This document shows positions 673 to 35,327 of a stretch of DNA of 36,351 bases, one piece after another (positions within the stretch are counted from its first letter, which is position 1; every line of letters begins with the position of its first letter). This DNA is from an uncultured Lachnospiraceae bacterium. GTDB taxonomy: Bacteria; Bacillota; Clostridia; Lachnospirales; Lachnospiraceae. Made by a program: the position numbers and the translations under genes. Location: assembly GCA_902793335.1 (NCBI GenBank), contig CADBCZ010000028.1, positions 1-36,351 of the forward strand. Reading direction: 5' to 3'. The notes beneath the pieces were generated by a model. It did no database searches. It was not told the origin of the DNA and saw only the letters and a list, made by a program, of their open reading frames with translations.

Positions 673-1800
673 ATGAAATATATAGGCCAAGTTAGCTATA
701 ATATCAATTGTAATTTTACTAATTATGGTTCAGCCTTACAATCATGGGCCTTGAGTAAGGCAATTGATAGAATAGGAAAAGATATCGGAGTGCAGTCTAA
801 ACTTATAGACTATTGTCCGAAAGTGCTGGAGGATTGTGATGTGCTTAATCCGTTCAAACGGATGTGGGACACTGACGAGGAATCTCGCCGTATGGTAGAG
901 TTAACAATGCCAGCTATAAAGGAGAACTATAAGAAATTTGAAGATTTCTATACCAATAGATTTCGTCGTACAAAGAAAAAGTATCATGATAGTGACTTCA
1001 ATGAAATTGTAAATGACGAGGGTATAGATGGCTTTGTGTGTGGTAGCGATACAATTTTCTGCTTTACTGAGTTTAAAGGCTTTGTAGAAGGCTATTATGC
1101 AAACTTTGACTGTATGAGGGGACGCAGTGTGGCTTATGCAGCAAGTTTTGGTGACCCTCACTTTAACGATGAAAAATATAATACGCTCAATGAAAGACTC
1201 AAAAACTTTAAGAGTATAGGCTTGCGAGAGAACTTGATGTTAGACTATGTAAAGAGCCATACAAGCATTCCTGTTCAGAGGGTGGTAGATCCTACATTAT
1301 TGCTGACATCCCAAGACTATGAAACGATTACCGCTGAAAGAATAGTCCCAGAAAAGTATCTCCTTCTATATTCCCGTCGCTATAATAAGAAAATGGAAGC
1401 CTTTGCAGAACAAATGGCAAAGGAAAAGGGATTGAAGATAATTGAGATAAGTCTTAGAGCCACAAATGCGGAAAAAGGACATATGATGATGTATGAAGCT
1501 GGTGTTGAGGAATTCCTTTCACTTATTAAGTATGCAGAATGCATTGTTACCAATTCTTTCCATGGAATCATTATGAGTGTTCAGTTCCGCAAGTTGTTCT
1601 ATGGATTCTCACGTGAGCAATGCGACAACAAGACACAGGAGCTCACTGAATTGATGGGGCTAAATAATAGAATGCTAGTATCAGACGATGAAGAATGCCC
1701 TAATACTATTGATTATGACAAGGTTCATGCTTTAATAGACGTTGTCAGGAAAGATTCTATAGCATTTCTAAGAAACGAACTTACGGTTTTATCTAAGTAA
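673..1800 (+). CDS. Polysaccharide pyruvyl transferase family protein
   Basis: A 375-residue protein of the polysaccharide pyruvyltransferase family (PF04230, CsaB/WcaK-like). Members transfer pyruvate from phosphoenolpyruvate to hydroxyls of a sugar, making an acidic ketal. Family marks visible are the N-terminal NYGSALQSWAL (about residues 17-27), VCGSDTIF (about 122-129), VAYAASFGDP in the middle, VDPTLLL, and the C-terminal TNSFHGIIMSVQFRK, which matches the family's conserved SxHG region. Length is normal. The protein is cytoplasmic and would act on lipid-linked repeat units. It is followed 11 bp later by the ThDP enzyme. The modified sugar cannot be told from sequence. Confidence 0.85.
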   Translation: MKYIGQVSYNINCNFTNYGSALQSWALSKAIDRIGKDIGVQSKLIDYCPKVLEDCDVLNPFKRMWDTDEESRRMVELTMPAIKENYKKFEDFYTNRFRRTKKKYHDSDFNEIVNDEGIDGFVCGSDTIFCFTEFKGFVEGYYANFDCMRGRSVAYAASFGDPHFNDEKYNTLNERLKNFKSIGLRENLMLDYVKSHTSIPVQRVVDPTLLLTSQDYETITAERIVPEKYLLLYSRRYNKKMEAFAEQMAKEKGLKIIEISLRATNAEKGHMMMYEAGVEEFLSLIKYAECIVTNSFHGIIMSVQFRKLFYGFSREQCDNKTQELTELMGLNNRMLVSDDEECPNTIDYDKVHALIDVVRKDSIAFLRNELTVLSK

Positions 1801-1811
1801 AAACAACCCAA

Positions 1812-3503
1812 ATGGAAAGACATTATACAAACGAACGAAACCATCAGATACTGATTTCATTGCTGAAAGCGCATAATATCAGTAAAGTAGTAGCATCGCC
1901 AGGTACAACAAATTCGGTTTTCATTGGCAGTATTCAACATGATCCGTATTTCACAATATATTCAAGTGTTGACGAACGCTCTGCTGCATATATGGCCTGT
2001 GGCCTGTCATATGAATCAGGAGAGCCGGTAATTATCAGTTGTACGGGAGCTACCGCAGCAAGAAATTATATGTCTGGTGCGACCGAAGCATATTATAGCA
2101 AAATGCCAATTCTTATCTTGACTTCATCGCAACCGAACAGAGCAATAGGACACTTAACGCCGCAGGTGACTGATAGAACATCTCCACCCAATGATGTCTG
2201 TAAAATCAGCATAGAGCTTCCTACGTGTAATGATAAGGCTGACGAGTGCTTCTGTGAGATACAGGCTAATAAAGCTCTGACAGAATTAAGGCGTCATGGA
2301 GGAGGCCCTGTTCATCTGAATCTGATTACGACCTACTCATATAATGAGAAAACTGCACTAACAGCAACGTCTTTCCCAGACGCACGTGTTATAAGAAGGG
2401 TTTCCCAAACAGATGTCTTTCCTGTAATAACAGGAACAAAGAATGCTATTTTTGTTGGTTCCCATAAGAAGTGGACACCAGAATTGACAGAAAGTGTAGA
2501 TAGGTTCTGTGAGACAAATAATGCGGTGGTTCTGTGTGATCATACTAGTAATTATAAAGGGAAGTATGGTATTCCCTTTGCATTAGTCATAAATCAAGCT
2601 TCTTTAAATAGAGCGAACACTCCTGCTTATACGGTAGATATTCTTATTCATATAGGGGAGGTTACAGGTGAAGAAGGTGCACCACGAATGATAAAAAGTA
2701 AGGAAACTTGGCGCGTATCAGAAGACGGGGAAATTAGAGATTATTTCAAAAATATGAGCCACGTCTTTGAAATGCCAGAAACACTGTTCTTTACACATTA
2801 TGCTAATAAAGAAAGTAAAGAGGCTTTGTATTATGATGAATGTATAAAAGTCTATAATGATTATGCTTGCCTTCGTAATAAAAGACTGGATGAAATGTCA
2901 TTCTCAAACACATGGATAGCTCAACGTATAGCCCCCCAGATTCCAGATGGCTCTACTGTGGTTTTGAGTATTCTTAACACTTTGCGTGTATGGAATTATG
3001 CAGAATTTAAACCTGCGGTAAACGTATATTGCCCTCTTGGTGGTTTTGGTATTGATGGAGCATCCTCTCTGACAGTAGGTGCTTCATTGGCAAATGCTAA
3101 TAAATTGTATTTCGGTATTACTGGAGATTTAGCTTTCTTCTATGACTTGAATTCTTTGGGAAACAGGCACATAGGAAGTAACTTGAGAATTTTACTAGTC
3201 AACAATGGATTGGGCTTTGAGTTTAAAAAGTGTTACGCAATGGCTTATCGCTTGCTTGAAGATGAAGTTGAACCATATGTTGCTGCGGCAGGTCACTTTG
3301 GAAAACAGTCCAGTGCTTTAGTCCGTCATTATGCAGAGGATCTGGGATTTGAATATTTAGCAGCATCAAATAAAGAAGAATTTGAAAAGGCATATCAGCG
3401 TTTCGTATCTCCCGAGATAACAGAGATGCCTATAGTGTTCGAGTGCTTTGTTTCTGCAGAAGAAGAATCTACGGCATTGAATGTTGTACAAAACAGAGAT
3501 TAG
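1812..3503 (+). CDS. MenD-like thiamine diphosphate-dependent enzyme
   Basis: A 563-residue protein with full Pyr-middle-PP architecture of ThDP enzymes. The activating glutamate is seen in DERSAAYMACGL (E55), a form typical of MenD. The PP-domain cofactor motif is GD (438-439) followed 24 residues later by NN (464-465). A GIDG stretch (about 413-416) also resembles MenD. The family performs decarboxylation of a 2-oxo acid with or without carboligation. In this polysaccharide locus a menaquinone role is unlikely. Next to a PhnW-like aminotransferase, a 2-oxo acid decarboxylase yielding an aldehyde that is then aminated is the simplest reading, analogous to phosphonopyruvate decarboxylase. It is much longer than typical Ppd proteins (about 380 residues), so the substrate is open. 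Gap to the next gene is 3 bp. Confidence 0.75.
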   Translation: MERHYTNERNHQILISLLKAHNISKVVASPGTTNSVFIGSIQHDPYFTIYSSVDERSAAYMACGLSYESGEPVIISCTGATAARNYMSGATEAYYSKMPILILTSSQPNRAIGHLTPQVTDRTSPPNDVCKISIELPTCNDKADECFCEIQANKALTELRRHGGGPVHLNLITTYSYNEKTALTATSFPDARVIRRVSQTDVFPVITGTKNAIFVGSHKKWTPELTESVDRFCETNNAVVLCDHTSNYKGKYGIPFALVINQASLNRANTPAYTVDILIHIGEVTGEEGAPRMIKSKETWRVSEDGEIRDYFKNMSHVFEMPETLFFTHYANKESKEALYYDECIKVYNDYACLRNKRLDEMSFSNTWIAQRIAPQIPDGSTVVLSILNTLRVWNYAEFKPAVNVYCPLGGFGIDGASSLTVGASLANANKLYFGITGDLAFFYDLNSLGNRHIGSNLRILLVNNGLGFEFKKCYAMAYRLLEDEVEPYVAAAGHFGKQSSALVRHYAEDLGFEYLAASNKEEFEKAYQRFVSPEITEMPIVFECFVSAEEESTALNVVQNRD

Positions 3504-3506
3504 CAG

Positions 3507-4218
3507 ATGAAAAAAATATTGGTTTTTGGCGGAACAGGGGCCATGGGAGTTTATTTAGTTGATATTCTCTCAAAGACAGGGTTATACGAGATTGATGTTA
3601 CTTCTCGTTCAAATCGTGAATCCACTCTTCCTTACCTAAAATACATCAAGGGAAATGCGCGTGATAATGATTTCATGAGGTCATATGGCTATGATGTGTC
3701 CTTGGCTATTTCTAAGTTAGTAGATAATCAAGATGCCTTTGGAAAGGTTATTCAGATTGCTTCAAGCGAAAATATGACTTGGAGGGAGATTCTCAAGTTG
3801 TATTTGGATATTCTAAAAGAGAAAAAGAATCTTACGCCCAGAATCTATTTGACTGACCACATGCAGGCTATAGATGAACTATATGAGGGGGGGATATAAT
3901 ACTATTTACGACAGAGTTTATAACCGTCATTTCAATAGTAGTCTTATTGAGACGTTAACACATAGCTGTGGCCGCGTTTTTAACAAAGATATGAGAAGTG
4001 GCCTTAGTGAATGTCTTTCTGATTTCTTGGATAACAACCGAGGCTTTTTGAGAATCGACTGGCAGTTTGAAGCATATCAAGATATATTAACGGGTGGAAT
4101 GGCTTCATCTGATGAATTTAGTTCTAAGGAGGAATATGAAACTTACCTTCTATATAGAAATACTCCGATTAATGAAATAGATGGATTAAATAGTGAATTA
4201 GAAGAAATTTACGTGTAA
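3507..4218 (+). pseudogene. Broken NAD-dependent epimerase/reductase (SDR)
   Basis: Two adjacent frames together resemble one extended-SDR protein. The first (3507-3899) starts MKKILVFGGTGAMG, an intact Rossmann dinucleotide-binding loop. The second continues as YNTIYDRVYNRHF and ends at 4218. Two lesions are apparent. First, around 3672-3692 the text jumps from an early strand (YIKGNARDNDFMR) to late-domain sequence (GYDVSLAISKL), so roughly the central half, including the SDR catalytic YxxxK, is missing; this rests on recalled family layout. Second, a run of seven G (3887-3893) shifts the frame: with six G the two parts would fuse as DELYEGGYNTIYD. Spacing to both neighbours (3 and 1 bp) is operon-like, so decay is probably recent. 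The G-tract lesion could be phase variation or a base-calling error; the core loss would not be rescued by it. Confidence 0.75.
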
Positions 4219-4219
4219 T

Positions 4220-5299
4220 ATGATAAACTTTACAGTAGGCCCTGTACAGTCTTCTGAAGCTGTACGAGCAATAGGTGCCGAGCAGGTGCCTTATTTTAGA
4301 ACCGCAGAGTTCTCTGAAACGATGTTTGAGAATGAGCAATTGGTGAAGAAGTTTGCAAATGCTACCGAAGATAGTAAGGTGGTATTTATGACATGTTCCG
4401 GAAGTGGTGGTATGGAAACTGCTATCATCAACTGCCTTAATAAGAACGATAAGGCGCTTGTTATTAATGGCGGTAGCTTTGGCGAGCGTTTTGTGGAGTT
4501 ACTTACTCTTCATGAGATACCTTTCACAGAAATCAAACTGGAGCATGGCAAAGCCCTGAAGCCAGAGCATCTTGCACCATATGAAGGGAAAGGTTATACA
4601 GCGTTCCTGATGCAGAAGCATGAAACATCAACTGGTGTTCACTATGACATCGATATGGTTTCTGATTTTTGCAAGCGTAATAATCTATTCTTGATAGTTG
4701 ATACCATCAGTACTTTCCTCTGTGATCCATTCGATATGACAGCAACAAATACCGGCATCATGATTACTGGCTCGCAGAAGGCTTTGGCATGTGCACCTGG
4801 TATTGCCGTTATGATTCTAGCTCCTTCTGCCTTGATGCGTGTAGAGGAAAATAAGTGCTGTTGCCAATATCTTGATTTAAAACTAGCACTTAAGAATATG
4901 GAGAGAGGCCAGACGCCATGGACTCCCGCTGTTGGTATTCTCCGTCAGATTAACGTTCGTCTGAAGGAAATAGAAGAGATGGGCGGCGCTGATGCTGAAA
5001 TTGCACGTTGTGCAGACCTGGCTAAATACTTCCGTGATAAGTTGGTGGAGTATGACCTGCCATTTGAGATAGTTTCAGAAAGCCTCTCTAATGCAGTAAC
5101 ACCACTTCATCCTACAACACGATCAGCCTACGAAATCTTCCTGAAGATTAAAGATGAGTATGGCATGTGGATCTGTCCTAATGGTGGTGATATGAAGGAT
5201 ACCATTTTCCGTGTTGGTCATATTGGTTATCTACAAAAGGAGGATTACGACCAATTGATTAATGCTTTCCTTGATTTAAGAAATAAGAAATTCATCTGA
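4220..5299 (+). CDS. PhnW-like class V aminotransferase
   Basis: A 359-residue PLP-dependent aminotransferase of the alanine-glyoxylate / 2-aminoethylphosphonate transaminase group (class V fold). Marks are the N-terminal FTVGPVQ, the GSG cofactor-phosphate loop (about 61-63), IVDTISTF with the PLP-ring aspartate D161, and the Schiff-base lysine K187 in [12 protein letters not shown]. The C-terminal FRVGHIGYL resembles the end of PhnW. It would aminate an aldehyde (or deaminate the reverse) using an amino-acid donor. It sits between the ThDP enzyme/SDR remnant and a cytidylyltransferase fusion, which points to making a small amine that becomes CDP-linked, such as 2-aminoethylphosphonate, phosphoethanolamine or a related aminoalkyl phosphate. 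The substrate is inferred only from context. Confidence 0.8.
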
Positions 5300-5301
5300 T
5301 T

Positions 5302-6648
5302 ATGGTTAAGGTTATAACATATGGCACATATGATCTTCTGCATTATGGCCATATTAAACTTCTTGAACGCGCCAAATCTCTAGGTGATTACCTTATTGTT
5401 GGTGTAACAGCCGATGATTTTGACAAGTCTAGAGGCAAAATAAACGTGCAACAAACATTGATGGAACGTATTGAGGCAGTTCGTGCAACAGGTATTGCAG
5501 ATAAGATAATAGTTGAGGAGTATGAAGGCCAGAAGATTGATGATATCAAACGTTATAATGTTGACATTTTTACTGTAGGATCCGATTGGGCTGGGCATTT
5601 TGACTACTTGAAAGAGTATTGTAATGTCATTTATCTGGATCGTACTCAAGGTATATCAAGTTCCGAACTTCGTGCTGAAAAAAATGAGATAAAAATTGGA
5701 TTGGTAGGAGAACCAACCGTTGTTATGAGCAAATTTGTGTCGGAGTGTAACTATGTTAATGGGGTTAAAACAATAGGAATATGTACTACCAATCAGCAAG
5801 AACTTCCTGAAACTCTTCTTAAACTACCCTTGGTAACGAATGACTATTCTCTTTTGCTAAATCAAGTAGATGCTGTATATATTATTTCTCAACCAACAAA
5901 GCATTACAATCACATCAAACAAGCACTGAAATCGGGGAAACATGTACTTTGCGAATCGCCTGTTTGCTTAAAATTAGAAGAATGTAAGGAACTATTTTTA
6001 CTCGCCAAACAGAAAGGACTTATATTGACGGAAGCAATTAAGACTGCTTATTCAACGGCATACAATCGCATGATTCTGCTAAGTAAGGGAGGCAAAATAG
6101 GTGACATTATTTCAGTAGATGCAATATGCACCAGTCTTCGCCAAATAGATTATTCAAACCATATAGAACTGGAGAATACTTGGAATAGTTTGACGGCATG
6201 GGGCCCAACAGCATTACTTCCTTTATTCCAGATCTTAGGAACAGATTATAAACGAAAAGAAATTATCTCACGTGTAGGTAGTGAGGAATATAGTTATGAT
6301 GAATTTACAAAGATTACTTTTCTTTATCCTCATGCAGTTGCATCCATCAAGGTAGGTAAAGGAGTAAAGAGTGAAGGAGAATTGATTATCTCTGGCACAG
6401 AAGGATATATCTATGTGCCGGCTCCATGGTGGAAGACTGACTATTTTGAGATAAGATACGAAAGAAGTGAAGAAACTAAACGCTATTTCTATCAACTTGA
6501 TGGAGAGGGGATTAGAAATGAAATTGTGGCATTTGTGAAAGCCATACAAACAGGTCAGAATATTTCATATTTATCGCAAGATAAGTCGGAGGCCATTTCA
6601 AAAATAATGGAAGATTATTATAATAAAATTAATTATATAACAATATGA
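5302..6648 (+). CDS. Cytidylyltransferase fused to Gfo/Idh/MocA-like oxidoreductase
   Basis: A 448-residue two-domain protein. Residues 1 to about 128 form a TagD-like nucleotidyltransferase: GTYDLLHYGH (8-17) supplies the HxGH motif and RTQGISSSELR (114-124) the C-terminal nucleotide-binding motif. Such enzymes join CTP to an alcohol or alkyl phosphate, for example glycerol 3-phosphate. Residues about 130-448 look like an NAD(P)-dependent Gfo/Idh/MocA oxidoreductase. In that domain the usual EKP motif reads ESP (218-220), so the usual conserved lysine is replaced by serine, and the nucleotide-binding loop is atypical (GLVGEPT). The second domain may therefore be inactive or do different chemistry. 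It overlaps licD by 4 nt (ATGA), so translation is likely coupled. The product would be a CDP-activated group for the LicD-type transferase. Confidence 0.8.
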   Translation: MVKVITYGTYDLLHYGHIKLLERAKSLGDYLIVGVTADDFDKSRGKINVQQTLMERIEAVRATGIADKIIVEEYEGQKIDDIKRYNVDIFTVGSDWAGHFDYLKEYCNVIYLDRTQGISSSELRAEKNEIKIGLVGEPTVVMSKFVSECNYVNGVKTIGICTTNQQELPETLLKLPLVTNDYSLLLNQVDAVYIISQPTKHYNHIKQALKSGKHVLCESPVCLKLEECKELFLLAKQKGLILTEAIKTAYSTAYNRMILLSKGGKIGDIISVDAICTSLRQIDYSNHIELENTWNSLTAWGPTALLPLFQILGTDYKRKEIISRVGSEEYSYDEFTKITFLYPHAVASIKVGKGVKSEGELIISGTEGYIYVPAPWWKTDYFEIRYERSEETKRYFYQLDGEGIRNEIVAFVKAIQTGQNISYLSQDKSEAISKIMEDYYNKINYITI

Positions 6649-7364
6649 TTTTTAAGCATTTTTTAAAGAAGTATTTGTTTCAGGAAGGCAAACTTTTTTA
6701 TAAAATATTAAAGGAAGTGCGATTAAAAAATGACGCACACAAGCTAAAGAAATATGGTCATCATTTATTAAGAGCCTTGTTCGATGCTGCTCTTGAAAAT
6801 AACATACCAGTATGGCTTGAGTTTGGAACTTTGCTTGGCGCTTACAGAGAAAAGTCCTTTATAAAACATGATTTTGATATAGATTGCGGAATGTATGCAA
6901 ACGATTATTCTCTTGCTTTTGAAGATAATCTATTATCTAAAGGATTTATCAAAATTAGATCTTTTTATATGAAGGACTTAAAAACAAACTCAGAAATACT
7001 GACTGAAGTTACGTTTGATTACTATGGTCTTCTTGTTGATGTTTTTTTATATAGAATTGATGGTGAAGAAAGATATTCTTATGGATATAGAAATTACGAT
7101 GATTTAAGCTCTAGTATGAAAACATATAAAGTTATTATGTTTTATTATCCTAAAATCAAAGGGTTTTCTACTCTTCCAATTGATGATCATTTTTATCCTG
7201 TACCTGCAAATACAGTGGAAATGTTAAAGTGTTATTATGGTGATGAATATATGATGCCAATAAAAAACTATGTAACATCACTTGAAGATAAAAAGCATAA
7301 ATCACTCAATTATACTGAACATAGAGGGTATTTAAAAGGCTTCAGAAGTATTGCTGATAGATAA
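6645..7364 (+). CDS. LicD-family transferase
   Basis: A 239-residue LicD/fukutin-like protein. The nucleotidyltransferase-fold core is clear: EFGTLLGAYREKSF (59-72) then HDFDID (75-80), with a later acidic strand VDVFLY. LicD proteins move phosphocholine or similar phospho-groups from a CDP carrier to sugars. Here the donor would come from the cytidylyltransferase encoded just upstream, whose stop codon it overlaps. The N-terminus is basic and amphipathic (FKHFLKKYLFQEGKLFYKILK), possibly for membrane association; no transmembrane helix is evident. From this gene to about 12044 the DNA becomes visibly more A/T rich than the flanking genes. Confidence 0.8.
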   Translation: MIFKHFLKKYLFQEGKLFYKILKEVRLKNDAHKLKKYGHHLLRALFDAALENNIPVWLEFGTLLGAYREKSFIKHDFDIDCGMYANDYSLAFEDNLLSKGFIKIRSFYMKDLKTNSEILTEVTFDYYGLLVDVFLYRIDGEERYSYGYRNYDDLSSSMKTYKVIMFYYPKIKGFSTLPIDDHFYPVPANTVEMLKCYYGDEYMMPIKNYVTSLEDKKHKSLNYTEHRGYLKGFRSIADR

Positions 7365-7368
7365 ACAT

Positions 7369-8799
7369 ATGAAAGACTCTGTTTTTAGTGCTGTTATTTG
7401 GGGTATTCTTGAACGGTTCTCTACACAAATTATTTCATTTTTAATTGGAATAATATTAGCTAGACTATTATCTCCGCATGATTATGGTGTAGTAGGAATT
7501 ATCACAATATTTATTGCATTTTCAAATGTCTTTATTGATGCAGGTTTTTCTAACGCAATAATAAGAAAACTTAATTGTACTGAATCTGATTATTCGACAG
7601 CATTTTTCTCAAATATCGCAATAGGTTTTTTGGTATACTCGATATTATGGCTATCAGCTCCTATTATTGCGTTTATTTTTAAGGAAAAGATATTAGAAAC
7701 GCTTATTAAAATTGCAGGTTTAAATGTCATATTTAATTCGTTATGTATTGTTCAAAATGCAATTTTAACATCAAAATTAAATATTAGGCTACAAACACTA
7801 ATTAATATAGGAGGTCAATTGCCTGCAGGATTGATAGCAATTATTCTTGCATACCATGGTTTTGGCATATATGCACTTGTAATTCAAACTATTGGGGCAT
7901 CTTTTATAAAAACGGTTTTATTGTGGACTTTTGCTGGTTGGAGGCCGCTTTCAAAATTTAGCAGAGATTCTTTTACTTATTTGTGGAATTTTGGTTCAAG
8001 ATTATTATTTGCTAATTTAATTGGCGTGATTTTCAACGAAATTAATTCAATATTGATAGGCAAATTCATTAGCAAAGATGCTTTAGGTTATTATTCAAAA
8101 GCTTCACAACTTAATACTAATGTCAGCGGGGTAAGCACAGGCGTTGTCCAGAAAATAGCGTTACCATTATTGTCAAAGTATCAAAATGATATACCGACTT
8201 TACGATTAAAATTTAGGGAAATGATGTCGTTATTATTGATGGTATTAGCCCCAATAACAGCTTTTCTCTGTTTTTCTTCTAAAGATCTGATTTGTGTCTT
8301 ATGGACTAGTCGATGGATTGAATCTGCTGACATATTCTCTTTATTGATTTTAGGATCTATTTTTTCTCCAATAAGTAGTTTAAGTTTGACGTTATTACAG
8401 GTTGTTGGAAAATCTAGCACAATACTGAAGTTAGAAGCTCCCAAAAAAGCGATATATATAATTCTGATATTTTGTGGTTTCTACTATGGCGTTATAGGAT
8501 TAGCAATCTCTTCTGTTTTTATTAATTTTGTTGCCGCCGTGGTTAATATGTTTCCTACAAAGAGTATTATTAGTTATAGTTACAAAGATCAATTCAGTGA
8601 CTTAGCTAGATATGTCCTATTTGCTTTTCCACTGGGATATTCTTTACATATTTTAACCTCAATCCAGAATATCTATTTGTCAATAATATCTTATGCGTTC
8701 TTATTTTTTTCTTCATATATTTTATTGCTTTTCTTATTTGGAGATCAAAATTTTAAAAAGCAAGTGAAACATATTCAGAAATTTGTTGGAAATGATTGA
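7369..8799 (+). CDS. wzx: Wzx-type oligosaccharide flippase (first copy)
   Basis: A 476-residue integral membrane protein of the polysaccharide transporter/MOP superfamily. It starts MKDSVFSAVIWGILERFSTQII, followed by the hallmark ARLLSPHDYGVVGI near the end of the first helix, and has about 12-14 hydrophobic segments. It would flip undecaprenyl-linked repeat units to the periplasm. I chose the ATG at 7369, five bases past the licD stop, over an upstream in-frame TTG at 7351, because the ATG puts the family-typical start at the N-terminus. It overlaps the next gene by 8 nt. Wzx sequences diverge with the glycan, so no substrate can be named. Confidence 0.85.
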   Translation: MKDSVFSAVIWGILERFSTQIISFLIGIILARLLSPHDYGVVGIITIFIAFSNVFIDAGFSNAIIRKLNCTESDYSTAFFSNIAIGFLVYSILWLSAPIIAFIFKEKILETLIKIAGLNVIFNSLCIVQNAILTSKLNIRLQTLINIGGQLPAGLIAIILAYHGFGIYALVIQTIGASFIKTVLLWTFAGWRPLSKFSRDSFTYLWNFGSRLLFANLIGVIFNEINSILIGKFISKDALGYYSKASQLNTNVSGVSTGVVQKIALPLLSKYQNDIPTLRLKFREMMSLLLMVLAPITAFLCFSSKDLICVLWTSRWIESADIFSLLILGSIFSPISSLSLTLLQVVGKSSTILKLEAPKKAIYIILIFCGFYYGVIGLAISSVFINFVAAVVNMFPTKSIISYSYKDQFSDLARYVLFAFPLGYSLHILTSIQNIYLSIISYAFLFFSSYILLLFLFGDQNFKKQVKHIQKFVGND

Positions 8800-10006
8800 T
8801 AAAATTGTAATTGCAGCATTAACATTCTTTTTAGTTGCTGACAATTATTTTTTAGATTATTATTTTACAGTTAGAATTGGTTTACTATTGTTTTCTATCT
8901 GTTTAATTCTGTTTTCCAAACAGAACTCTCCGCGTTATTTTTTAAATGGGTTATCAAAATATTATATATATATATGGTCGCTTTGCATTGGACATCTTGT
9001 TTTTATTGCCTATTTTAACTATTCACCCTTTCTTTTGATTCAAGTACCTAGGGCTATTTCAATGTTGTTCCAAACTTTTATTGGATATCTGTTATCTTAT
9101 GGTTTATTATCTTTTTATGGTTCGAAGGCTCTAAAAATACTATGTTTATCTTTTATCTGTGCATATATTGTCTGTATAGCAAAAGGTACATTAGTTTTGG
9201 GGCCTATTGGATTAATTAATTATGCTTTTGATTTTTCAGATAATAAGATTGCTGCTGAGAATTTTGAGTTAAATAAGATGTTTGAAATACATTCTTTAGG
9301 TTTAACTTTTCCCTTGTTTCTTTTATCTCATTATATGTATAAGTTTTCTAATGATAAGAAACTCTTTTCTAAAGGGGTTATCCTCTTGCTTTTATTTTTT
9401 ACATTGCTGTCTTTAAAAAGAATCTCTATTATTGCAGCAATTATAACGTATGTTATTTTTGTTATTGCTAACAAGTTGAATCTTTTGAATTTTGTAATTA
9501 AGAAATTTTTGTATTTTGCAATTATTATCGCTTTTCTTATTATAACATTTGTCTATAGCCCTTCTTTTTCGGACTTTATTAAAGAGCACAATATTAATGT
9601 GATGGGCCGTGATATTCTTTATAAGGGTATTACTGATCAAACAACATTTTCTGTTGACTATATTGGAAAAGGATGGGCTTGGGTTAGTGCCTATATGAAA
9701 TTTATGAGTGAGAATGACAATATCTTTAATGGAATTTTAGGCTTGCATAATGATATATTAAAATTGTATGTCGAACTAGGTTTTATTGGTTTTATTATTC
9801 TGTTTATTATACAGTATCGCTCTATTCCCAATTATCTTTCACGTACTAGTAAGCAACTGGCTGTATGCTATTTGTTTTTCCAAATATTTGCTTTTATCAC
9901 ATACGTTACAGATAATACTTTCCAATATTGGGATTTCCAGACTGTATTGATAGTTATACCTTTATGTTATTATTATAAGTCTACTAGTGTAAAAATAAAA
10001 AAATAG
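8792..10006 (+). CDS. wzy: Wzy-type O-antigen/capsule polymerase (first copy)
   Basis: A 404-residue polytopic membrane protein with roughly ten or more hydrophobic helices and a large loop between helices (about residues 265-320, containing GMGRDILYKGI-like polar text). That layout is typical of Wzy polymerases, which join flipped repeat units. Sequence conservation in Wzy is low, so the call rests on topology, length and its place directly after Wzx. The ATG at 8792 overlaps the Wzx stop; upstream TTG codons at 8783 and 8786 are less likely starts. Strongly A/T rich. Confidence 0.75.
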   Translation: MIDKIVIAALTFFLVADNYFLDYYFTVRIGLLLFSICLILFSKQNSPRYFLNGLSKYYIYIWSLCIGHLVFIAYFNYSPFLLIQVPRAISMLFQTFIGYLLSYGLLSFYGSKALKILCLSFICAYIVCIAKGTLVLGPIGLINYAFDFSDNKIAAENFELNKMFEIHSLGLTFPLFLLSHYMYKFSNDKKLFSKGVILLLLFFTLLSLKRISIIAAIITYVIFVIANKLNLLNFVIKKFLYFAIIIAFLIITFVYSPSFSDFIKEHNINVMGRDILYKGITDQTTFSVDYIGKGWAWVSAYMKFMSENDNIFNGILGLHNDILKLYVELGFIGFIILFIIQYRSIPNYLSRTSKQLAVCYLFFQIFAFITYVTDNTFQYWDFQTVLIVIPLCYYYKSTSVKIKK

Positions 10007-19364: not shown

Positions 19365-20123
19365 TTATACGTTCATAAACTTCGCCTCAACAAATTGGGG
19401 AACTTTCCACATCATCTTCATGATTTTGGTTGGAACGCCCCAGCGACCGTGACTGCGATACATGCGTACATCCTCGTCCCACATCATTTTTCGTTTGGCG
19501 CTATCTGTCGACAAACCTCCCATACGCATTCTGATTATCTTGCGTTTCATATAGGTTACTTTCAAATTTGCCATATATAGATAGCGAAACAAAAGATCTG
19601 AATCGGCTGCAATTTTATACGATTCGTCGTACAATCCCTCACGCATCATCACATCCCTGCGAATATAACAAGTTGGGTGCAGCGGCAACCATCCGCACGC
19701 CACCTTCCACCGGTGATACGTGCCACCTATCCAATTACGCACAGGTTTGTAGGTGTCATTAGCATTCACAAATACCCCATCGCCATACAAGAAATCGGCA
19801 TTAGTTTCTTCAAACCGTTTTACAACATTCGATATCACATGGTTGTCGTACAAGAAATCATCTGAGTGCACCAATCCAATGATATCTCCCGTAGCCATAT
19901 GTATACCTTTGTTAATTGCTTCATACATACCATGGTCGCGTTCTGATACTATTTTCGCAACCCTATCCTTATACCTATTAATTATATCCATAGATCCATC
20001 TTTCGACAGACCATCAACAACTATATATTCGATATCAGAATAATCCTGCGCCAACACGCTCTCGATGGCACCTTGTATGGTAGCCGCTCTATTATAGCAA
20101 GTAGTTATTATTGAGATCTTCAT
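19365..20123 (-). CDS. Family 2 glycosyltransferase (WcaE-like)
   Basis: A 252-residue GT2 enzyme. It opens MKISIITTCYNRAATIQGAIESVLAQDY, with VVDGLSKDGS (35-44), the segment ISERDHGMYEAINKGI-like (here VSERDHGMYEAINKGI, 59-74) and the metal motif HSDD (86-89). The short single-domain form with xDxGxYDA/EAxNKG text is typical of colanic-acid WcaE-type transferases. It is the last gene of the minus-strand set and overlaps the stop of the SDR gene by 4 nt. The C-terminus is strongly basic and methionine-rich (RMGGLSTDSAKRKMMWDEDVR). Confidence 0.85.
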   Translation of the reverse strand: MKISIITTCYNRAATIQGAIESVLAQDYSDIEYIVVDGLSKDGSMDIINRYKDRVAKIVSERDHGMYEAINKGIHMATGDIIGLVHSDDFLYDNHVISNVVKRFEETNADFLYGDGVFVNANDTYKPVRNWIGGTYHRWKVACGWLPLHPTCYIRRDVMMREGLYDESYKIAADSDLLFRYLYMANLKVTYMKRKIIRMRMGGLSTDSAKRKMMWDEDVRMYRSHGRWGVPTKIMKMMWKVPQFVEAKFMNV

Positions 20124-21088
20124 TTCTGCTTGTTTTCTACATTTTTAATCCAATCTAATGTTCTCTTGGTCCCCTCAATTCTTGAAACAGGGAGGTTTGG
20201 AGCAATAGATTTAATTGGCTCAAAGTCATGTACATTGTCTGTGGTCATGTTATGTAGCCTGAAACTGGTCATAGGGAAAGCAATACCAAACTTCTTAAGC
20301 AAATCACCAAACCAGCCAGCACACTTAAAGCACCAATATGGAATCCTTGGAATCCAAATCCCAGCCTCTTTTGCTATTTCATTTGCCCATTCCGTGATGT
20401 CATAAGGCTTATAATCACCGATGTAGAAAACTTTACGATTAACCTTCTCTGCATCAGCATTAACTATTGACATGATCTGGTAGATGGCATTATCCACATA
20501 GCCGTATGTCTTCTTGCAAGCGCGTTTGCCCATATGGAAATACATGTGGCTTAGCACGATATGGAAAAATTTATTATATGGTTCACCAAACCAAGGCCCC
20601 CAGATGGACGTTGGACGTATGATAGACCATGTGTACTTTGGATTACGTTCCTTAATGCGACGTTCTGTCTCTACTTTACTTTCTCCGTAAAGTGTATGAG
20701 GCGCATAATCCTCAAAGTCCTTAGGCATATAACCTGGTTCGCATACATACATGGATGATGCAAACACCGCCTGTTTAAGGTTCGGGACCTGCTCAAGAGC
20801 ATCCAAGAGATTAGACACGCCCTGCATATTAGCATCATAGTCTTGGAGAGTCTTACCATTCAAATCTGTACGAGCAGCAAGATGGATTACGTAGTCAGGA
20901 GAGAACGTTCTGATCTCTTCTGTGATTATGGCCTTATCCCGAACGTCTACTTGATGCCATATCGAACGATGCTGTTCCAACTTTGGCGCAGCAATGTCAA
21001 TACTTAATAACTTAGCATTTGTTTTACGTAATGCTTCTATCAGGTTTGTCCCGATGAAGCCACTACCTCCAGTAATAAGTATTTTCAT
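20120..21088 (-). CDS. NAD-dependent sugar epimerase/dehydratase (paralogue of the 16934 gene)
   Basis: A 322-residue extended SDR. The cofactor loop is TGGSGFIG (6-13), followed by HLAARTD (69-75) and catalytic Y134-GES-K138. It is paralogous to the plus-strand SDR at 16934-17947 but well diverged. It overlaps both neighbours by 4 nt (GT2 downstream, GT4 upstream), so it is translationally coupled. A nucleotide-sugar epimerase or reductase; substrate not readable. Confidence 0.8.
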   Translation of the reverse strand: MKILITGGSGFIGTNLIEALRKTNAKLLSIDIAAPKLEQHRSIWHQVDVRDKAIITEEIRTFSPDYVIHLAARTDLNGKTLQDYDANMQGVSNLLDALEQVPNLKQAVFASSMYVCEPGYMPKDFEDYAPHTLYGESKVETERRIKERNPKYTWSIIRPTSIWGPWFGEPYNKFFHIVLSHMYFHMGKRACKKTYGYVDNAIYQIMSIVNADAEKVNRKVFYIGDYKPYDITEWANEIAKEAGIWIPRIPYWCFKCAGWFGDLLKKFGIAFPMTSFRLHNMTTDNVHDFEPIKSIAPNLPVSRIEGTKRTLDWIKNVENKQK

Positions 21089-22131
21089 TTTTTCTGTAAT
21101 TCTAATATTTCTTTTCCCATTTGTTCATAATCTAATTCATCAAAGAAACTAGCTTTATCGTAATCAAATAATATTTCTCTGCTGAAAGGGGTATCACTTG
21201 CTATTATATAGCATCCAGTTATTTTGGCTTCAAGTAAAGGTAGTCCAAAAGATTCCACATAGGAGGGGAATAATAAAACCGACTCAGAATAAAACTTAAA
21301 TACTTCATCACGCCGCATTGGCCCTTTGAAATCAACATTTAGACTATTTTTCTTGGAAAAATCATAGAGTTTTTTTGTATAATCATTTTCGTCAGCCCTT
21401 ATAGTGAATGTAACATTATAATCAGTTAAACCTCTGTCTTGTGCATATAGAAGCGCTTTTAAAAGAGTAAAATGATTTTTGTATGTGAACGCTGTTGCTG
21501 GATAGAAGAAACTTTTTCTATTCTCAATAGAGTCTTTGTATTTCCAATAAGAATTTGTACTTATATCAGGACTCAAAATAAGTATTTTATCATCTGAAAT
21601 ATTCGCTTTTGTTTTTAAAGCACTTTTCATCCAAGCTGTTTGGACAATAGTATAGTCAACCTTCCTCAGAGATGAAAAAATCAGTCTGCTAATAATATTT
21701 TGATAAATCCATAATGTTTTTCCATCCTTTTTTAAAGAAAATCTATGATCTGTTAAGACAAAGGGTAGATGCAAATATACATATTGTGGGCCTTTAAAAC
21801 AGCTTAATCCCTTGTTCTGTAAAGAAAAGACTTTTTGGGGATCAATTCTATTTATTATTTTTTTTAGATATACAAAATCAAATAAAAGGCGATAACACCA
21901 TCCTTTTTTTATCCATGGATATCTAAGTATTCTTATGTTACTTGTTTCTTCGTATTTTGGAGTACTAACAATAAACCACCAATTAACACTTTTATCAGGC
22001 CAGGACTTAACTTGTTCATAAAAGTCATTAAGTATAGATAAAGCTCCAGACTCGCTCGCATGAACATCGCACACAAGAATGGTACTACCAGGTGTGGGAC
22101 AAATTACCTCAATAAGTGATATGGGTTCCAT
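21085..22131 (-). CDS. Family 4 glycosyltransferase
   Basis: A 348-residue GT-B enzyme. The C-terminal half carries the GT4 signature: YPATAFTYKNH (about 210-220), FKGPMRRDEVFKFY, and the E-x7-E donor-site motif E293...E301 in SYVESFGLPLLEAKITG. The N-terminal acceptor domain is divergent, lacking the usual glycine-rich GG..V start (it has ASESGALSIL at about 25-34). It should be a retaining transferase adding one residue to the repeat unit. A 22-bp gap separates it from the upstream GT2. Confidence 0.8.
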   Translation of the reverse strand: MEPISLIEVICPTPGSTILVCDVHASESGALSILNDFYEQVKSWPDKSVNWWFIVSTPKYEETSNIRILRYPWIKKGWCYRLLFDFVYLKKIINRIDPQKVFSLQNKGLSCFKGPQYVYLHLPFVLTDHRFSLKKDGKTLWIYQNIISRLIFSSLRKVDYTIVQTAWMKSALKTKANISDDKILILSPDISTNSYWKYKDSIENRKSFFYPATAFTYKNHFTLLKALLYAQDRGLTDYNVTFTIRADENDYTKKLYDFSKKNSLNVDFKGPMRRDEVFKFYSESVLLFPSYVESFGLPLLEAKITGCYIIASDTPFSREILFDYDKASFFDELDYEQMGKEILELQKK

Positions 22132-22153
22132 TTCCTATATTATTTTGTGGTTA

Positions 22154-22903
22154 TCAACGATGATAATTATAAAACCGAAAAGCTAATAAACTCTTTAGGA
22201 GAATTATAACATTGAATATTGCGGGTATGGTATGATGAGCTTTTCTGATTTTAAAAGTTTCGATAACGGCAGCTCTTGACATACTCATTCCGCCTTCTTG
22301 CATCCTTGCAATTGTTTTTCCTACAAGAAACTTATATGTCAGATTTGATTTCTTTCTAAGTAGTAATTCATAATCAGCACATATATGATAATCTAAGCTA
22401 TATAAACCAACTTCATCAAAAAGGCTCTTTTTGTTATGCAGTGAGCCCACATGTGCAGCAGCCATATATTTGCGCATATTTTCCCAAGATGGCTCCTTAC
22501 CTATTTTTTTTATCAATTTACCTTTATAATCTACATAGTCGTTTTGAGCACATATATAATCATACGCTTCAATCGCTGTCGTGTTTAAAATATACTTAAG
22601 ATATGTCTTTATAGAACCAGGCAGCAATTCATCATCAGCACCTACAAACATCAGCCAATCTCCAGATGCCAGCATGACACCTTTATTCCAGGCATCATAT
22701 ATTCCTTTATCTGGTTCAGATATTAAACATGTAACTTTATTACCATAACTCTTTATTATTTCCAAGGTATTGTCTTTTGATCCACCATCAATTATTAATA
22801 GCTCACAATTGTCATTCAATTGGCTTGATATACTACTCAAACAGCGGTTAAGAGTCTTTCCTGCATTATAAGTTGCGATTATTATTGATATAAGTTTTGA
22901 CAT
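22154..22903 (-). CDS. Family 2 glycosyltransferase (WcaE-like)
   Basis: A 249-residue GT2 enzyme opening MSKLISIIIATYNAGKTLNRCLSSI, with IDGGSKDNT (38-46), SEPDKGIYDAWNKGV (62-76) and metal motif GADD (88-91). It is a compact single-domain type like the other GT2 of this set. Its start overlaps the 3' end of the polymerase gene by 38 nt; the start is well supported because the canonical GT2 opening begins right there. Donor unknown. Confidence 0.85.
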   Translation of the reverse strand: MSKLISIIIATYNAGKTLNRCLSSISSQLNDNCELLIIDGGSKDNTLEIIKSYGNKVTCLISEPDKGIYDAWNKGVMLASGDWLMFVGADDELLPGSIKTYLKYILNTTAIEAYDYICAQNDYVDYKGKLIKKIGKEPSWENMRKYMAAAHVGSLHNKKSLFDEVGLYSLDYHICADYELLLRKKSNLTYKFLVGKTIARMQEGGMSMSRAAVIETFKIRKAHHTIPAIFNVIILLKSLLAFRFYNYHR

Positions 22904-24146
22904 AATTATTTGGATTTAGACAATTTAATAAAAAAGATTCATCAATAGACTTTTTCGAGCATTGATAATATAGATACTGAAACAATACTGAGCAATTTAG
23001 AGAATATAATCCGCCTTTAATTAAGGCGCTGATAATAAAAATCAACAAACAATAGCTCAATATATTTCTCTTATTAAAGAATTTAATCAAGAAACATAAA
23101 TAAAGAACTATTCCAATTAAACCAAACTCAGAAAACATTCTTGTAAACAAAGAATATCCGTCCTCCTTATTGAAACCATAATATATATAATCAGAGTCAT
23201 ACATTGCTTCATAATTTTGCTGGTGTGTTCCTAAACCAGTACCCGTAATACGGTATGGAGCGTTTAAAGCAACCCATGCATTTGTCATAGTCGTATAAGT
23301 ACTTAAATTAAAATTTTCGAAATATGAAGGGGAAGAATCCGAAGACATTAAAAACTTCAACGCTTCAGCAGACTGCAAAATTTTTTGGTAAGCATTTTTC
23401 ACACCTGTACTTTCTTGGTACTCGGAATTATTGTAATCAACAGAAAACAAACTAAAGGCTAAGAAAACTCCAAATAACATAAAAGATAATCTGAGTTTAC
23501 GAAGTTTCTTATATAATTTAATCATTATTGCGATGCCAATACCAATATACATTGAACTGCTAAAAGTAAGAATAGCTGCAGATAAAATAACCAAGCTCTT
23601 TATTTTATTAATGCCATAAAAAAAACGTGATATTATAATATAACTTACTGCAGGCGTCAGAAATAAGGCTAAATGACCAGCCTCTATTAAGACAGAATGC
23701 ACTCTTTCTGAGTTTTGTGTGGGCCTTAAATCCAGTGTATATGGGAAAACATTAATATCAACTGCAAGTTTCATGAATAGTTGAAAGAGTCCTAGAATTG
23801 AAACTATATAAGAAAATCCCATATACATACCAAACCAGTAATCTACACTTTTTTTTGAGGACTTGTATAGTTGAATATACCCATATAGCACAATTACAAT
23901 AAGTACTAGCTGTTGAAGAAACTTATTTATATTATATCCAGTAAAAAGACTCATGGAAAAACCGTGAAGTACTAATACCAAAAATAATAATGATACTTTG
24001 GACTTAAAAACAGGGCCTCTGACCATCTGGAATAACAAGAAAAGCAGAAGATATAAAGGTTCTGTATAAACCCCTAATACACCTGCAGCAATTACACCAG
24101 AATATTTTCTGTTTTTTTTATTCCAATAATACTTAACAAGATTCAT
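22866..24146 (-). CDS. wzy: Wzy-type polymerase (second copy)
   Basis: A 426-residue polytopic membrane protein with about ten or more hydrophobic helices and a long extracytoplasmic loop between about residues 245 and 320 (including ITGTGLGTHQQNYEAMY). The GTGLGTHQ segment before a tyrosine-rich stretch resembles O-antigen polymerase/ligase-like loops. Given its place in a glycan operon with its own Wzx, a repeat-unit polymerase is most likely. Codon-dense A/T-rich composition like the first Wzy. A 49-bp gap lies upstream. Confidence 0.75.
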   Translation of the reverse strand: MNLVKYYWNKKNRKYSGVIAAGVLGVYTEPLYLLLFLLFQMVRGPVFKSKVSLLFLVLVLHGFSMSLFTGYNINKFLQQLVLIVIVLYGYIQLYKSSKKSVDYWFGMYMGFSYIVSILGLFQLFMKLAVDINVFPYTLDLRPTQNSERVHSVLIEAGHLALFLTPAVSYIIISRFFYGINKIKSLVILSAAILTFSSSMYIGIGIAIMIKLYKKLRKLRLSFMLFGVFLAFSLFSVDYNNSEYQESTGVKNAYQKILQSAEALKFLMSSDSSPSYFENFNLSTYTTMTNAWVALNAPYRITGTGLGTHQQNYEAMYDSDYIYYGFNKEDGYSLFTRMFSEFGLIGIVLYLCFLIKFFNKRNILSYCLLIFIISALIKGGLYSLNCSVLFQYLYYQCSKKSIDESFLLNCLNPNNYVKTYINNNRNL

Positions 24147-24195
24147 ATAAACGTATTTCAGTGTATATTATCTATTAACATTTACAAAAATTCCT

Positions 24196-25410
24196 TCATA
24201 CCCGATGATTGTAAATTGTTTTTAGGTTATCTTTATAATGAGACCAGGTATAGTTCTGAGATATCGTCCTAGCGGCTTCTTTACCAAGTCTCTCTCTTAG
24301 ATATTGTGATTCGTACATTTTCTTTACCGCACTAACTATAGCCTTTTCATCCTTTATTGGCACTATTAACCCATTCACACCATCTTGAACAGGACATCCA
24401 CAATTATCTGTAAGTATTACCGGCAATCCTGCTGCCATTGCTTCCATACCAGCCCTTGTAGATCCTTCGCAGAGAGAGGGGAACAAGTATACATCGCTCT
24501 GAGAATAGTATTTTTTTAGATCTTCATATAACACAGTGCCTATAAATTCAAAGTGACTCATATCAGACTTTCTTACAAGCTCATCAATTTCATTTAGTTT
24601 GCCAATTACTACTATCTTATAATTTATAGGCATTTTATTAAGGATTTGTGAAGCTTTAATTAAATATTCAGCACCTTTTCTAATTCCAAATTCGCCGATA
24701 AATAAGATTTTCATCAAACCATCTTTAAGATTATAATCTTTCTTTAGAAAGAACCAGTCTTCACGAACTCCCAAATAGTTTACTAAAATTTTACTAGAAT
24801 CATATCCATGTCTAACAAACGATTGTTTAACATAATCAGAATTAGCAACTATCAAGTCTGCTGCTTGACAGTCTTTGATTACAAGTTTCCAAAATTCTGA
24901 TTTCGGCCCGATACCTATATTTATTCCATACCGCTCATATTCAGGACTCAATATTTCATCAATTTCTTCTGTACAAGCAATAGAATGGTCTGCAATTACT
25001 TTAACACCTCTTTTTTTCGCATTTTTAACGACTTCACCTTGACCATATCCAGTTCTATAGTGCAATATGTCAACATCCTTTATATATAAAGAAGCTAAGC
25101 GCCCATAATTCCTTGCAACTGTAGCCTCGCCTTTGTCTCTTGAGTAACCAAATTTAGCAGCTATTTTAAATAAGACTTTCAGCAAATCATTTAATAACAA
25201 CCCGTGAACTATCACTTTTGAAGATTTGCATCGTCGCACTTGTAATCTTCTAAACCTTGTCTTAAAAATAGTATCAAAGATTGTCAGAAGCTTAACCATC
25301 CATTTACTAGGAGTATAGTTTTGCACAAGAATAATATCATAATCTTCTGACATCATATCTGCAGTTTTATTCAAAAAAAAACTGTCGCTGTTTAAAATTA
25401 ATATTTTCAT
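24196..25410 (-). CDS. Family 4 glycosyltransferase
   Basis: A 404-residue GT-B enzyme. Marks are ILFIGEFGIRKGAEYLIKA (about 235-253), FIGTVLYEDLKKYYSQSDVYLFPS and the E-x7-E motif E315...E323 in CEGSTRAGMEAMAAGLPVI. It should be a retaining GT4 adding a residue to the repeat unit. It lies directly after the 3-ketoreductase (4-nt overlap), so it is a candidate for transferring the 2,6-dideoxysugar, though this is only positional. Confidence 0.85.
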   Translation of the reverse strand: MKILILNSDSFFLNKTADMMSEDYDIILVQNYTPSKWMVKLLTIFDTIFKTRFRRLQVRRCKSSKVIVHGLLLNDLLKVLFKIAAKFGYSRDKGEATVARNYGRLASLYIKDVDILHYRTGYGQGEVVKNAKKRGVKVIADHSIACTEEIDEILSPEYERYGINIGIGPKSEFWKLVIKDCQAADLIVANSDYVKQSFVRHGYDSSKILVNYLGVREDWFFLKKDYNLKDGLMKILFIGEFGIRKGAEYLIKASQILNKMPINYKIVVIGKLNEIDELVRKSDMSHFEFIGTVLYEDLKKYYSQSDVYLFPSLCEGSTRAGMEAMAAGLPVILTDNCGCPVQDGVNGLIVPIKDEKAIVSAVKKMYESQYLRERLGKEAARTISQNYTWSHYKDNLKTIYNHRV

Positions 25411-26435
25411 AAAGCCGCCTTAAATTCCGATAATAAAGTTGCCTGTCTTCGTAAAACTTGATAATTACTTCGCCTAGAAACTGCATTGTTTACACATTTT
25501 ACAAAATGAGTTATAGATTTATGAAAAGCATCATCGGATGGCAATTCACACGTTTGGTAATCTTGATTTTTTTTTATAGTATAAGTAGGCACATAGCCTT
25601 CTGGAGCCGTTAGGATTCGATTTGATGTTATAGTACCCTTACTCCCCCATATCTCCACTTCGCACTTATAATCATTATCCATGCCAAAGGCTAACTGAGC
25701 TGTTAATCCAGCCTCATTAACCATCGTACATGAGCCAAACATCTCTACCTCAAAGTCATCAATATAATTAACTTGTGCTGTAACAACTTTAGCAGTGTCG
25801 CCCAACAGAAAGTTGGCATACTTCATGGTATAACCTCCGGCATCAAGCAATGCTCCACCACCTAAAGCCTTATTATATCTAAAGTCGTTCTTCTGCCTCA
25901 AAGGGAATCCAAAACTAATCCTATATAGGTGTATGTCACCTATCTCTCCACTCTTGACAACATCATCAAGCGCTTTCAGTTGATCATGGTAAACAAACAT
26001 ATAATTCTCATGTAGTGCCAGATTCCTCTCCTTGGCTATTCTAATAAGTTCTTCGGTATCAGCCAAACATGTTGTAGATGGTTTTTCAACAAACACATGC
26101 TTGCCATTTTCCAATGCCATTTTGGCCCATTTAAAATGGAGAGCAGGGGGCAATGGCAAGTATACGGCATCAACATCCTTTGATTCTATCAATTTCTGAT
26201 AACCATCATATATTTTGCCTCCATAAGCATCAATGAACGTTTGAGCCTTTGAAAGTTCACGTTCTTGTTGCTCTGCAATAGCTTTGGCTTTCACTTTACT
26301 TACATCACCAAACCACTCTCCTGGGCTGGCATAACCAATACCTGCAAACGTTATTTCATTATCAGCCTTCTTCAAAGCAGGCATAAATCTCCTGAAAGCA
26401 ATTTCAGAAGGGCAAATTATTCCGATTCTAATCAT
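25407..26435 (-). CDS. NDP-hexose 3-ketoreductase (Gfo/Idh/MocA family)
   Basis: A 342-residue NAD(P)-dependent oxidoreductase. The catalytic EKP motif is present (117-119 in VFVEKPS), followed by NYMFVYHDQ and RYNKALGGGALLDAGGY. These and the later MDNDYKCEVEIWGSKG text closely follow 3-ketoreductases of 2,6-dideoxysugar pathways (KijD10/TylC1/EvaB-type functional group). Such enzymes reduce the C3 keto group of NDP-3,4-diketo-2,6-dideoxyglucose. The gene follows the 2,3-dehydratase by 10 bp, as expected because the dehydratase product is unstable without this partner. Confidence 0.85.
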   Translation of the reverse strand: MIRIGIICPSEIAFRRFMPALKKADNEITFAGIGYASPGEWFGDVSKVKAKAIAEQQERELSKAQTFIDAYGGKIYDGYQKLIESKDVDAVYLPLPPALHFKWAKMALENGKHVFVEKPSTTCLADTEELIRIAKERNLALHENYMFVYHDQLKALDDVVKSGEIGDIHLYRISFGFPLRQKNDFRYNKALGGGALLDAGGYTMKYANFLLGDTAKVVTAQVNYIDDFEVEMFGSCTMVNEAGLTAQLAFGMDNDYKCEVEIWGSKGTITSNRILTAPEGYVPTYTIKKNQDYQTCELPSDDAFHKSITHFVKCVNNAVSRRSNYQVLRRQATLLSEFKAAL

Positions 26436-26445
26436 AATATCATAA

Positions 26446-27885: not shown

Positions 27886-27895
27886 ATTTTGTACT

Positions 27896-28777: not shown

Positions 28778-28928
28778 TATAGTCCCCCTACTTTAATCAG
28801 TTATTAAATAAATCTACAATTCCATATAGTAACAAACATTTATTACTGTGTCATACTGTATAAAAATAAACAATAACAAAAAAAACTATTGTTTCATTAT
28901 TATGCTTGAGTTATAAGATTGTCTATTT

Positions 28929-30116: not shown

Positions 30117-30118
30117 AA

Positions 30119-31660: not shown

Positions 31661-31708
31661 TTAAAACAAACTGCTAAATTATTGAGACCGTTTTGTATAC
31701 TATTTTTT

Positions 31709-31716
31709 CAAATATA
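31709..31716 (-). promoter_or_regulatory. Candidate internal promoter upstream of the second wzx
   Basis: On the minus strand TATATTTG matches TAnnTTTG, with a TTG 17 bases upstream inside the 3' end of ugd (31734-31736). The 62-bp gap between ugd and wzx is the largest in the 5' half of this set, so a separate promoter for the glycan-specific genes is plausible. Confidence 0.45.
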
Positions 31717-31722
31717 AACATT

Positions 31723-33036: not shown

Positions 33037-33047
33037 GTTATAAAATA

Positions 33048-35308: not shown

Positions 35309-35327
35309 TTATTGAATTATTGATTTA

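Follow-up and report, generated by a model that had tools for sequence, protein, structure and literature searches.

A candidate aminotransferase, cytidylyltransferase and LicD route to an amine-bearing phosphate in a glycan locus of an uncultured Lachnospiraceae bacterium

The stretch of DNA analysed here (the window, 36,351 nucleotides) corresponds to contig C28 in a genome of 3.61 Mb and 157 contigs from an uncultured Lachnospiraceae bacterium. Near its start lie genes for a MenD-like thiamine diphosphate (ThDP) enzyme, a PhnW-like class V aminotransferase (AT), a TagD-like cytidylyltransferase (CT) and a LicD-family phosphotransferase, and profile matches bear out these four genes on the plus strand in the order given by the initial annotation. 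That gene list had missed a broken gene of the NAD-epimerase/short-chain dehydrogenase/reductase (SDR) type (3507-4218) and a pyruvyltransferase-family gene that recurs in related loci (673-1800). The TagD-like gene does encode a CT, as annotated, but the Gfo/Idh-like domain fused to it had been overlooked. Comparison with related loci makes it plausible that the AT, the CT fusion and LicD together form an amino-alkyl phosphate route for the cell surface. The features are as follows.

673..1800, + strand: polysaccharide pyruvyltransferase-family protein, 375 aa (PF04230, 98.6 bits)
1812..3503, + strand: MenD-like ThDP enzyme, not MenD (NCBIfam menD, 171 bits; cut-off 244)
3507..3899, + strand: broken NAD-epimerase/SDR gene, first piece (matches the homologue in locus L037)
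3874..4218, + strand: broken NAD-epimerase/SDR gene, second piece, in a different frame (matches the L037 homologue)
4220..5299, + strand: class V AT, PhnW-like (PhnW-AepZ, 144 bits; cut-off 361)
5302..6648, + strand: fusion of a TagD-like CT and a Gfo/Idh-like domain (TIGR01518, 114 bits; cut-off 165)
5302..5679, + strand: TagD-like CT domain, residues 1-126 of the fusion (structure matches 2b7l and 1coz)
5692..6645, + strand: Gfo/Idh-like domain, residues 131-448 of the fusion (PF01408, 67 bits)
6645..7364, + strand: LicD-family phosphotransferase (PF04991, 37.9 bits over 40 residues; cut-off 22.6)
7351..8799, + strand: Wzx-type flippase, as context (PF13440, 268 bits)

The two halves of the CT fusion differ in how well they are preserved. 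The CT domain finds its best structures in the glycerol-3-phosphate CTs 2b7l (E-value 2.1e-36) and 1coz (2.1e-35) and retains the HxGH and RTxGISS signatures. The Gfo/Idh-like domain of the window has lost the GxGR, EKP and GGxFxExG motifs, showing GLVGEP and ESP, and so lacks both the glycine motif for NAD (dinucleotide) binding and the catalytic EKP lysine of the Gfo/Idh/MocA oxidoreductases. We aligned 37 fusions, namely matches at E 1e-80 / 1e-90, those of loci L020, L037, L038 and L039, and that of the window. Both the EKP lysine and the glycine motif are missing from 25 of them, whereas the other 12 retain the EKP lysine, GxGR and most of GGxFxExG. In the tree, a branch supported at 99/95 separates 23 motif-less rows from the rest; two more, L128 and L129, are distant from these 23, and L129 has the AT at 62%. 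Conservation was compared without L128, L129 and L125 (a near copy of L124), leaving 23 motif-less and 11 motif-bearing rows. It is 0.47 in motif-less versus 0.64 in motif-bearing rows for the first half of the Rossmann part and 0.62 versus 0.68 for the second half, whereas the CT domain (0.84 versus 0.82) and the C-terminal part (0.65 and 0.68 versus 0.65 and 0.67) are stable. Because the drop is concentrated in the first Rossmann half, the domain seems to have been retained in a capacity other than that of a dehydrogenase. Structure prediction for the fusion, run on four sequences, reached a mean pLDDT (predicted local distance difference test) of 51 and was not used.

The two kinds of fusion also keep different company. 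Each neighbour was labelled after whichever of a few reference proteins it matched best by BLASTP (E 1e-5), and other aminotransferases could therefore go unnoticed; with these labels, the AT or a HisC-like aminotransferase (above 33% identity) lies within six genes of the fusion in 19 of the 25 motif-less loci (AT in 14, HisC-like in 5) versus 1 of the 12 motif-bearing loci. When the window and the four loci found through the ThDP enzyme are left aside, the counts are 14/20 and 1/12. The AT and the HisC-like enzyme belong to two unrelated families, and the five HisC-like rows imply five changes on the best tree, one of which is forced by well-supported branches; repeated swapping between the two is thus likely, though not proven. 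A LicD relative occurs within six genes in 16 of the 25 motif-less loci, the window included, so that transaminase, CT and LicD recur as a set, as expected of genes that tailor a CDP-linked (cytidine diphosphate-linked) amine. GDPD or TagF-like (CDP-glycerol-transferase-like) genes, on the other hand, flank 8 of the 12 motif-bearing but 3 of the 25 motif-less fusions; in L124, for example, Pfam identifies the neighbours as a PF04464 CDP-glycerol transferase and GDPD. This suggests that the ancestral fusion probably made a product resembling CDP-glycerol, its Gfo domain acting on a C2 carbonyl.

The AT itself has 3f0h as its closest solved chain (E 1.5e-146). It was found in 8 of the 391 genomes of one class sample, that is in 6 of the 8 genomes with a motif-less fusion versus 2 of the 383 others, an association beyond chance expectation, with kinship uncorrected. 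The latter two, G437 and G551, have no fusion at E 1e-80; in loci L176 and L177 the nucleotidyltransferase adjoining the AT has LicC as its best solved match, PntC coming fifth in L176 and second in L177. In some loci, then, an unrelated enzyme with a similar function stands in for the aminotransferase, and in others for the CT, an argument for one shared pathway. The HisC-like partner in L037 scores 235 bits as HisC versus 132 bits as the CobD decarboxylase, both under the cut-offs. Genes possibly acting on an amine are found near some AT/CT pairs, including those for a GNAT acetyltransferase in L117, an ATP-grasp amino-acid ligase in L119 and an octopine dehydrogenase in L120. Ornithine-cyclodeaminase-like genes are also seen near such pairs (L118:5021-7559, L120:6780-8994 and L129:17108-18070), accompanied by the octopine-dehydrogenase-like gene in L120 and by a 108-aa piece of a relative in L118.

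Capsule loci are mosaic in make-up, and the cassette could likewise be a set of unrelated steps in which CT and LicD add glycerol phosphate and the AT acts on a nucleotide sugar. The nearness of the CT domain to glycerol-3-phosphate CTs and the CDP-glucose genes downstream in the window would suit such an arrangement. It does not account for the pairing of the AT or HisC-like enzyme mainly with motif-less fusions, nor for the two remaining AT loci, where a LicC-like enzyme takes the position of the CT fusion, and we give it a minor chance.

The first gene of the four behaves differently from the other three. At 171-172 bits versus a cut-off of 244, and with most of the arginine positions replaced, a true MenD was rejected for the window ThDP enzyme, and no protein in the genome passes 244 bits. 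In an alignment of 85 rows, made without the distant ThDP enzyme of L128, Glu55 and the cofactor motif (GD438-439, NN464-465), whose roles we take to be those in MenD, are present in 85/85, whereas three of the four arginine positions presumed to bind the substrate in MenD are replaced in most rows; the window enzyme keeps R392 and has T, Q and L at positions 33, 107 and 409. It looks like a functional ThDP enzyme of a separate type. The best 80 of 586 relatives, to which all counts on ThDP loci refer, span Bacteroidota, Spirochaetota, Pseudomonadota, Bacillota and others. Seventy-six of them were mapped, L042, L045, L057 and L114 being dropped since the ThDP gene was masked in the calling of open reading frames (ORFs); at least three genes are available on both sides in 54 of the 76, so that absences near the ThDP gene may be overstated. 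Within three genes, an SDR/NAD-epimerase gene is found in 64/76 loci, a pyruvyltransferase-family gene in 52/76 and both in 46/76, an aminotransferase in 4/76 (two AT, two HisC-like), a CT fusion in 3/76 and a PEP (phosphoenolpyruvate) mutase match in 0/76. Glycan loci in several phyla share this module of MenD-like ThDP enzyme, SDR/epimerase and pyruvyltransferase-family protein (L037-L116).

Viewed from the CT fusion, 6 of the 25 motif-less loci carry a labelled ThDP relative. The 32 fusion loci without a ThDP enzyme include three with a pyruvyltransferase-family gene and none with an SDR/epimerase gene. A pyruvyltransferase-family relative of at least 57% identity occurs in 7 of the 25 motif-less loci, the window included, and in L151 and L167 it is present without a ThDP gene within six genes. 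In the window, the two short ORFs at 3507-4218 represent parts of one NAD-epimerase/SDR gene that has lost an internal segment in frame and shifts frame further on: the first (3507-3899) aligns with residues 1 to ~55 and then ~186-268 of its intact counterpart in L037 (376 aa), and the second (3874-4218) with residues 267-375 at 60.6% identity. A genome-wide search at E 1e-20, run without a positive control, found no other epimerase homologue. Unless this is an assembly error, the ThDP branch is without its usual partner in this strain.

The initial annotation had the ThDP enzyme feed the aminotransferase. As a general rule this is not supported, given the four aminotransferase loci among 76; it may hold in those four (L037-L040), which are exactly the ThDP relatives with at least 65% identity. 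In the phosphate version of that proposal, the ThDP enzyme would decarboxylate a phosphorylated 2-oxo acid such as 3-phosphohydroxypyruvate, the AT would aminate the resulting aldehyde to phosphoethanolamine, the CT would form CDP-ethanolamine and LicD would transfer it. Three of the four loci (L037, L038 and L039) hold ThDP enzyme, aminotransferase and CT fusion together, and the contig of the fourth, L040, stops 1.1 kb past the ThDP gene; the aminotransferases are class V in L038 and L039 and HisC-like in L037 and L040 (fragments only in L040). In L039, from Ruminococcus flavefaciens ATCC 19208, the ORFs for epimerase, ThDP enzyme, AT and CT fusion are all full-length. Moreover, L020 has the whole set again, although its ThDP enzyme is just 31% identical. 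Against this stand the low share of motif-less loci with a ThDP relative (six in 25), the 72 in 76 ThDP loci with no aminotransferase within three genes, and the steady partnership of the ThDP enzyme with an SDR that is broken in the window. A two-carbon product would also leave the CDP-glycerol-type genes beside the sister fusions unexplained. This phosphate route is thus unlikely.

A cassette without PEP mutase, as initially annotated, is correct for the window, where the genome-wide profile search that the annotation had called for found no PEP mutase above the cut-off. It is not a trait of the organism: the same search gave one match above the cut-off on contig C4 (G000:C4:45405-46256; TIGR02320, 408 bits, cut-off 319.6), and absence from the organism was rejected. 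Contig C16 has another PF13714 match, which falls short of the family cut-off. The mutase on C4 is followed by PhnW (422 bits, cut-off 361), a nucleotidyltransferase that finds its best solved matches in LicC and PntC, and a phosphonopyruvate decarboxylase (458 bits, cut-off 312.5). This looks like a complete aminoethylphosphonate pathway, and because its proteins pass curated cut-offs that the window AT and ThDP enzyme do not, it would be separate from the cassette. That the window enzymes draw phosphonopyruvate or phosphonoacetaldehyde from this set to make a CMP (cytidine monophosphate)-linked aminoethylphosphonate, as the presence of mutase, PhnW, LicC/PntC-like nucleotidyltransferase and decarboxylase in the genome and the resemblance of the AT to PhnW might suggest, is very unlikely, given that the C4 set is self-sufficient, that the AT (144 bits) fails PhnW/AepZ membership and the ThDP enzyme has no match to the decarboxylase model TIGR03297 at E 0.001 whereas the C4 proteins pass both, and that no PEP mutase is present in 21 of the 25 genomes with a motif-less fusion, in any of the four genomes holding the closest ThDP relatives (among the best 80 of 586) or in G437 and G551, the two genomes with AT and a LicC-like enzyme. 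The source genome is among the four of 25 that do have a mutase, and this distribution supports the initial proposal insofar as AT, CT and LicD would form a mutase-free CDP-amine route.

Also on C4, before the aminoethylphosphonate genes, are two paralogues in which a YidC/60KD_IMP domain is fused to a sulfatase-superfamily domain (L003:2433-4949 and 6290-8908, on G000:C4), with a PF04464 gene between them; they are possible candidates for surface phospho- or phosphonotransferases. In the window, a second, convergent glycan cluster occupies 19365-36134 on the minus strand and includes a nucleoside diphosphate (NDP)-hexose 2,3-dehydratase gene at 26446-27918 (517 bits).

These comparisons lead us to propose that the working core consists of the AT (4220-5299), the CT fusion (5302-6648) and LicD (6645-7364). 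The AT would take a small phosphorylated ketone or aldehyde supplied by central metabolism and aminate it, the likeliest case being conversion of dihydroxyacetone phosphate (DHAP) to serinol phosphate (2-amino-2-deoxyglycerol phosphate); the CT domain would turn serinol phosphate into CDP-serinol, and LicD would attach serinol phosphate to the glycan through a phosphodiester. The Gfo/Idh-like part of the fusion would do no dehydrogenase work and might serve in binding, assembly or channelling instead. We infer descent from CDP-glycerol-type synthases whose Gfo domain acted on the carbonyl at C2, with an aminotransferase later taking charge of that carbon. A three-carbon skeleton is favoured because CDP-glycerol-type genes are often neighbours of the sister fusions whose motifs are intact. 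The ThDP enzyme and SDR, perhaps with the pyruvyltransferase-family protein, would form a separate glycan-decoration module. Judged from sequence comparison, the mechanism as a whole, from DHAP through serinol phosphate and CDP-serinol to the glycan with a separate ThDP module, has about an even chance of being right. CDP-serinol would be the simplest product, and phosphoethanolamine or 3-aminopropanediol phosphate is also possible. More tentative is the idea of CDP-serinol (CDP-2-amino-2-deoxyglycerol) as a new surface building block, made by a descendant of a CDP-glycerol-type synthase that keeps a conserved pseudo-oxidoreductase domain, stripped of its cofactor and catalytic motifs, and works with interchangeable class V or HisC-like partners, to give zwitterionic phosphodiesters without carbon-phosphorus chemistry.

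Several observations weigh against this mechanism. The nearest relatives of the CT domain use glycerol 3-phosphate, and the Fisher tests on co-occurrence are uncorrected for kinship. ThDP enzymes do recur beside motif-less fusions; since the aminotransferase loci are just the ThDP clade of at least 65% identity, a joint pathway is possible there, and the set in L020 likewise speaks against a clean split of modules. No aminotransferase of either family lies within six genes in 6 of the 25 motif-less loci (L128, L149, L153, L154, L156 and L158), motif-bearing L162 has a HisC-like aminotransferase, and motif-less L149, L156 and L159 have a TagF-like neighbour. In L153 (8208-13379), an HMGL aldolase, a ThDP enzyme, a motif-less fusion and an Fe-alcohol dehydrogenase stand in a row without an aminotransferase, seemingly another variant of CDP-alkyl chemistry, and in L128 the neighbours of the motif-less fusion include a ThDP enzyme and an SDR; some fusions may thus take other substrates.

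Amine-bearing phosphates make capsules zwitterionic, which matters for the immune recognition of gut bacteria. If the proposal is true, the amine in loci of this kind would come from a glycolytic intermediate rather than phosphonate chemistry, and a fused enzyme could change its chemistry through the loss of one active site and the gain of a partner gene; two simple enzymes would be ready as assay targets. The ThDP-SDR-pyruvyltransferase combination would be a widespread glycan module in its own right. A literature search, with most subscription journals outside its coverage, found neither the term CDP-serinol nor any work combining three of the four gene-family terms.

Among known systems, MenD (2-succinyl-5-enolpyruvyl-6-hydroxy-3-cyclohexene-1-carboxylate synthase) is the closest family of the ThDP enzyme, which shares Glu55 and the cofactor motif but differs in its sub-threshold score, in the arginine positions replaced in most relatives and in its SDR and pyruvyltransferase-family neighbours. 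TagD/TarD glycerol-3-phosphate cytidylyltransferases are the nearest solved relatives of the CT domain, which here is fused and under the family cut-off. The Lic system (the CT LicC and LicD, for phosphocholine) and the Pnt system (PntC, for aminoethylphosphonate; PMC6697681) resemble the cassette in activating a small phosphate or phosphonate amine with cytidine triphosphate, and Lic also in LicD-type transfer and in the LicC-like enzyme beside the AT in L176 and L177. The cassette differs from both in its TagD-like CT fused to a motif-less Gfo domain and in having no PEP mutase. CDP-linked carbonyl chemistry, as proposed for the ancestor, has a precedent in the synthesis of CDP-6-glucitol and CDP-mannitol (HS5.18/HS5.17 and Mnp1/Mnp2), where a CT is followed by a carbonyl-handling enzyme acting on the CDP-linked open-chain sugar; those enzymes are of the PF01128 and PF01370 families and reduce to a polyol, with no amine involved (PMC10918830). 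For the proposed transamination of DHAP, the precedent is Campylobacter jejuni Cj1437, which is reported to transaminate DHAP to serinol phosphate; Cj1436 converts phosphoserine to phosphoethanolamine (PMC11800397). The likeness is one of the proposed reaction, and in 5 of the 25 motif-less loci a HisC-like enzyme stands in for the AT. In C. jejuni, serinol phosphate ends as an amide on glucuronate (PMC11800397), whereas here it would be joined to the glycan as a phosphodiester.

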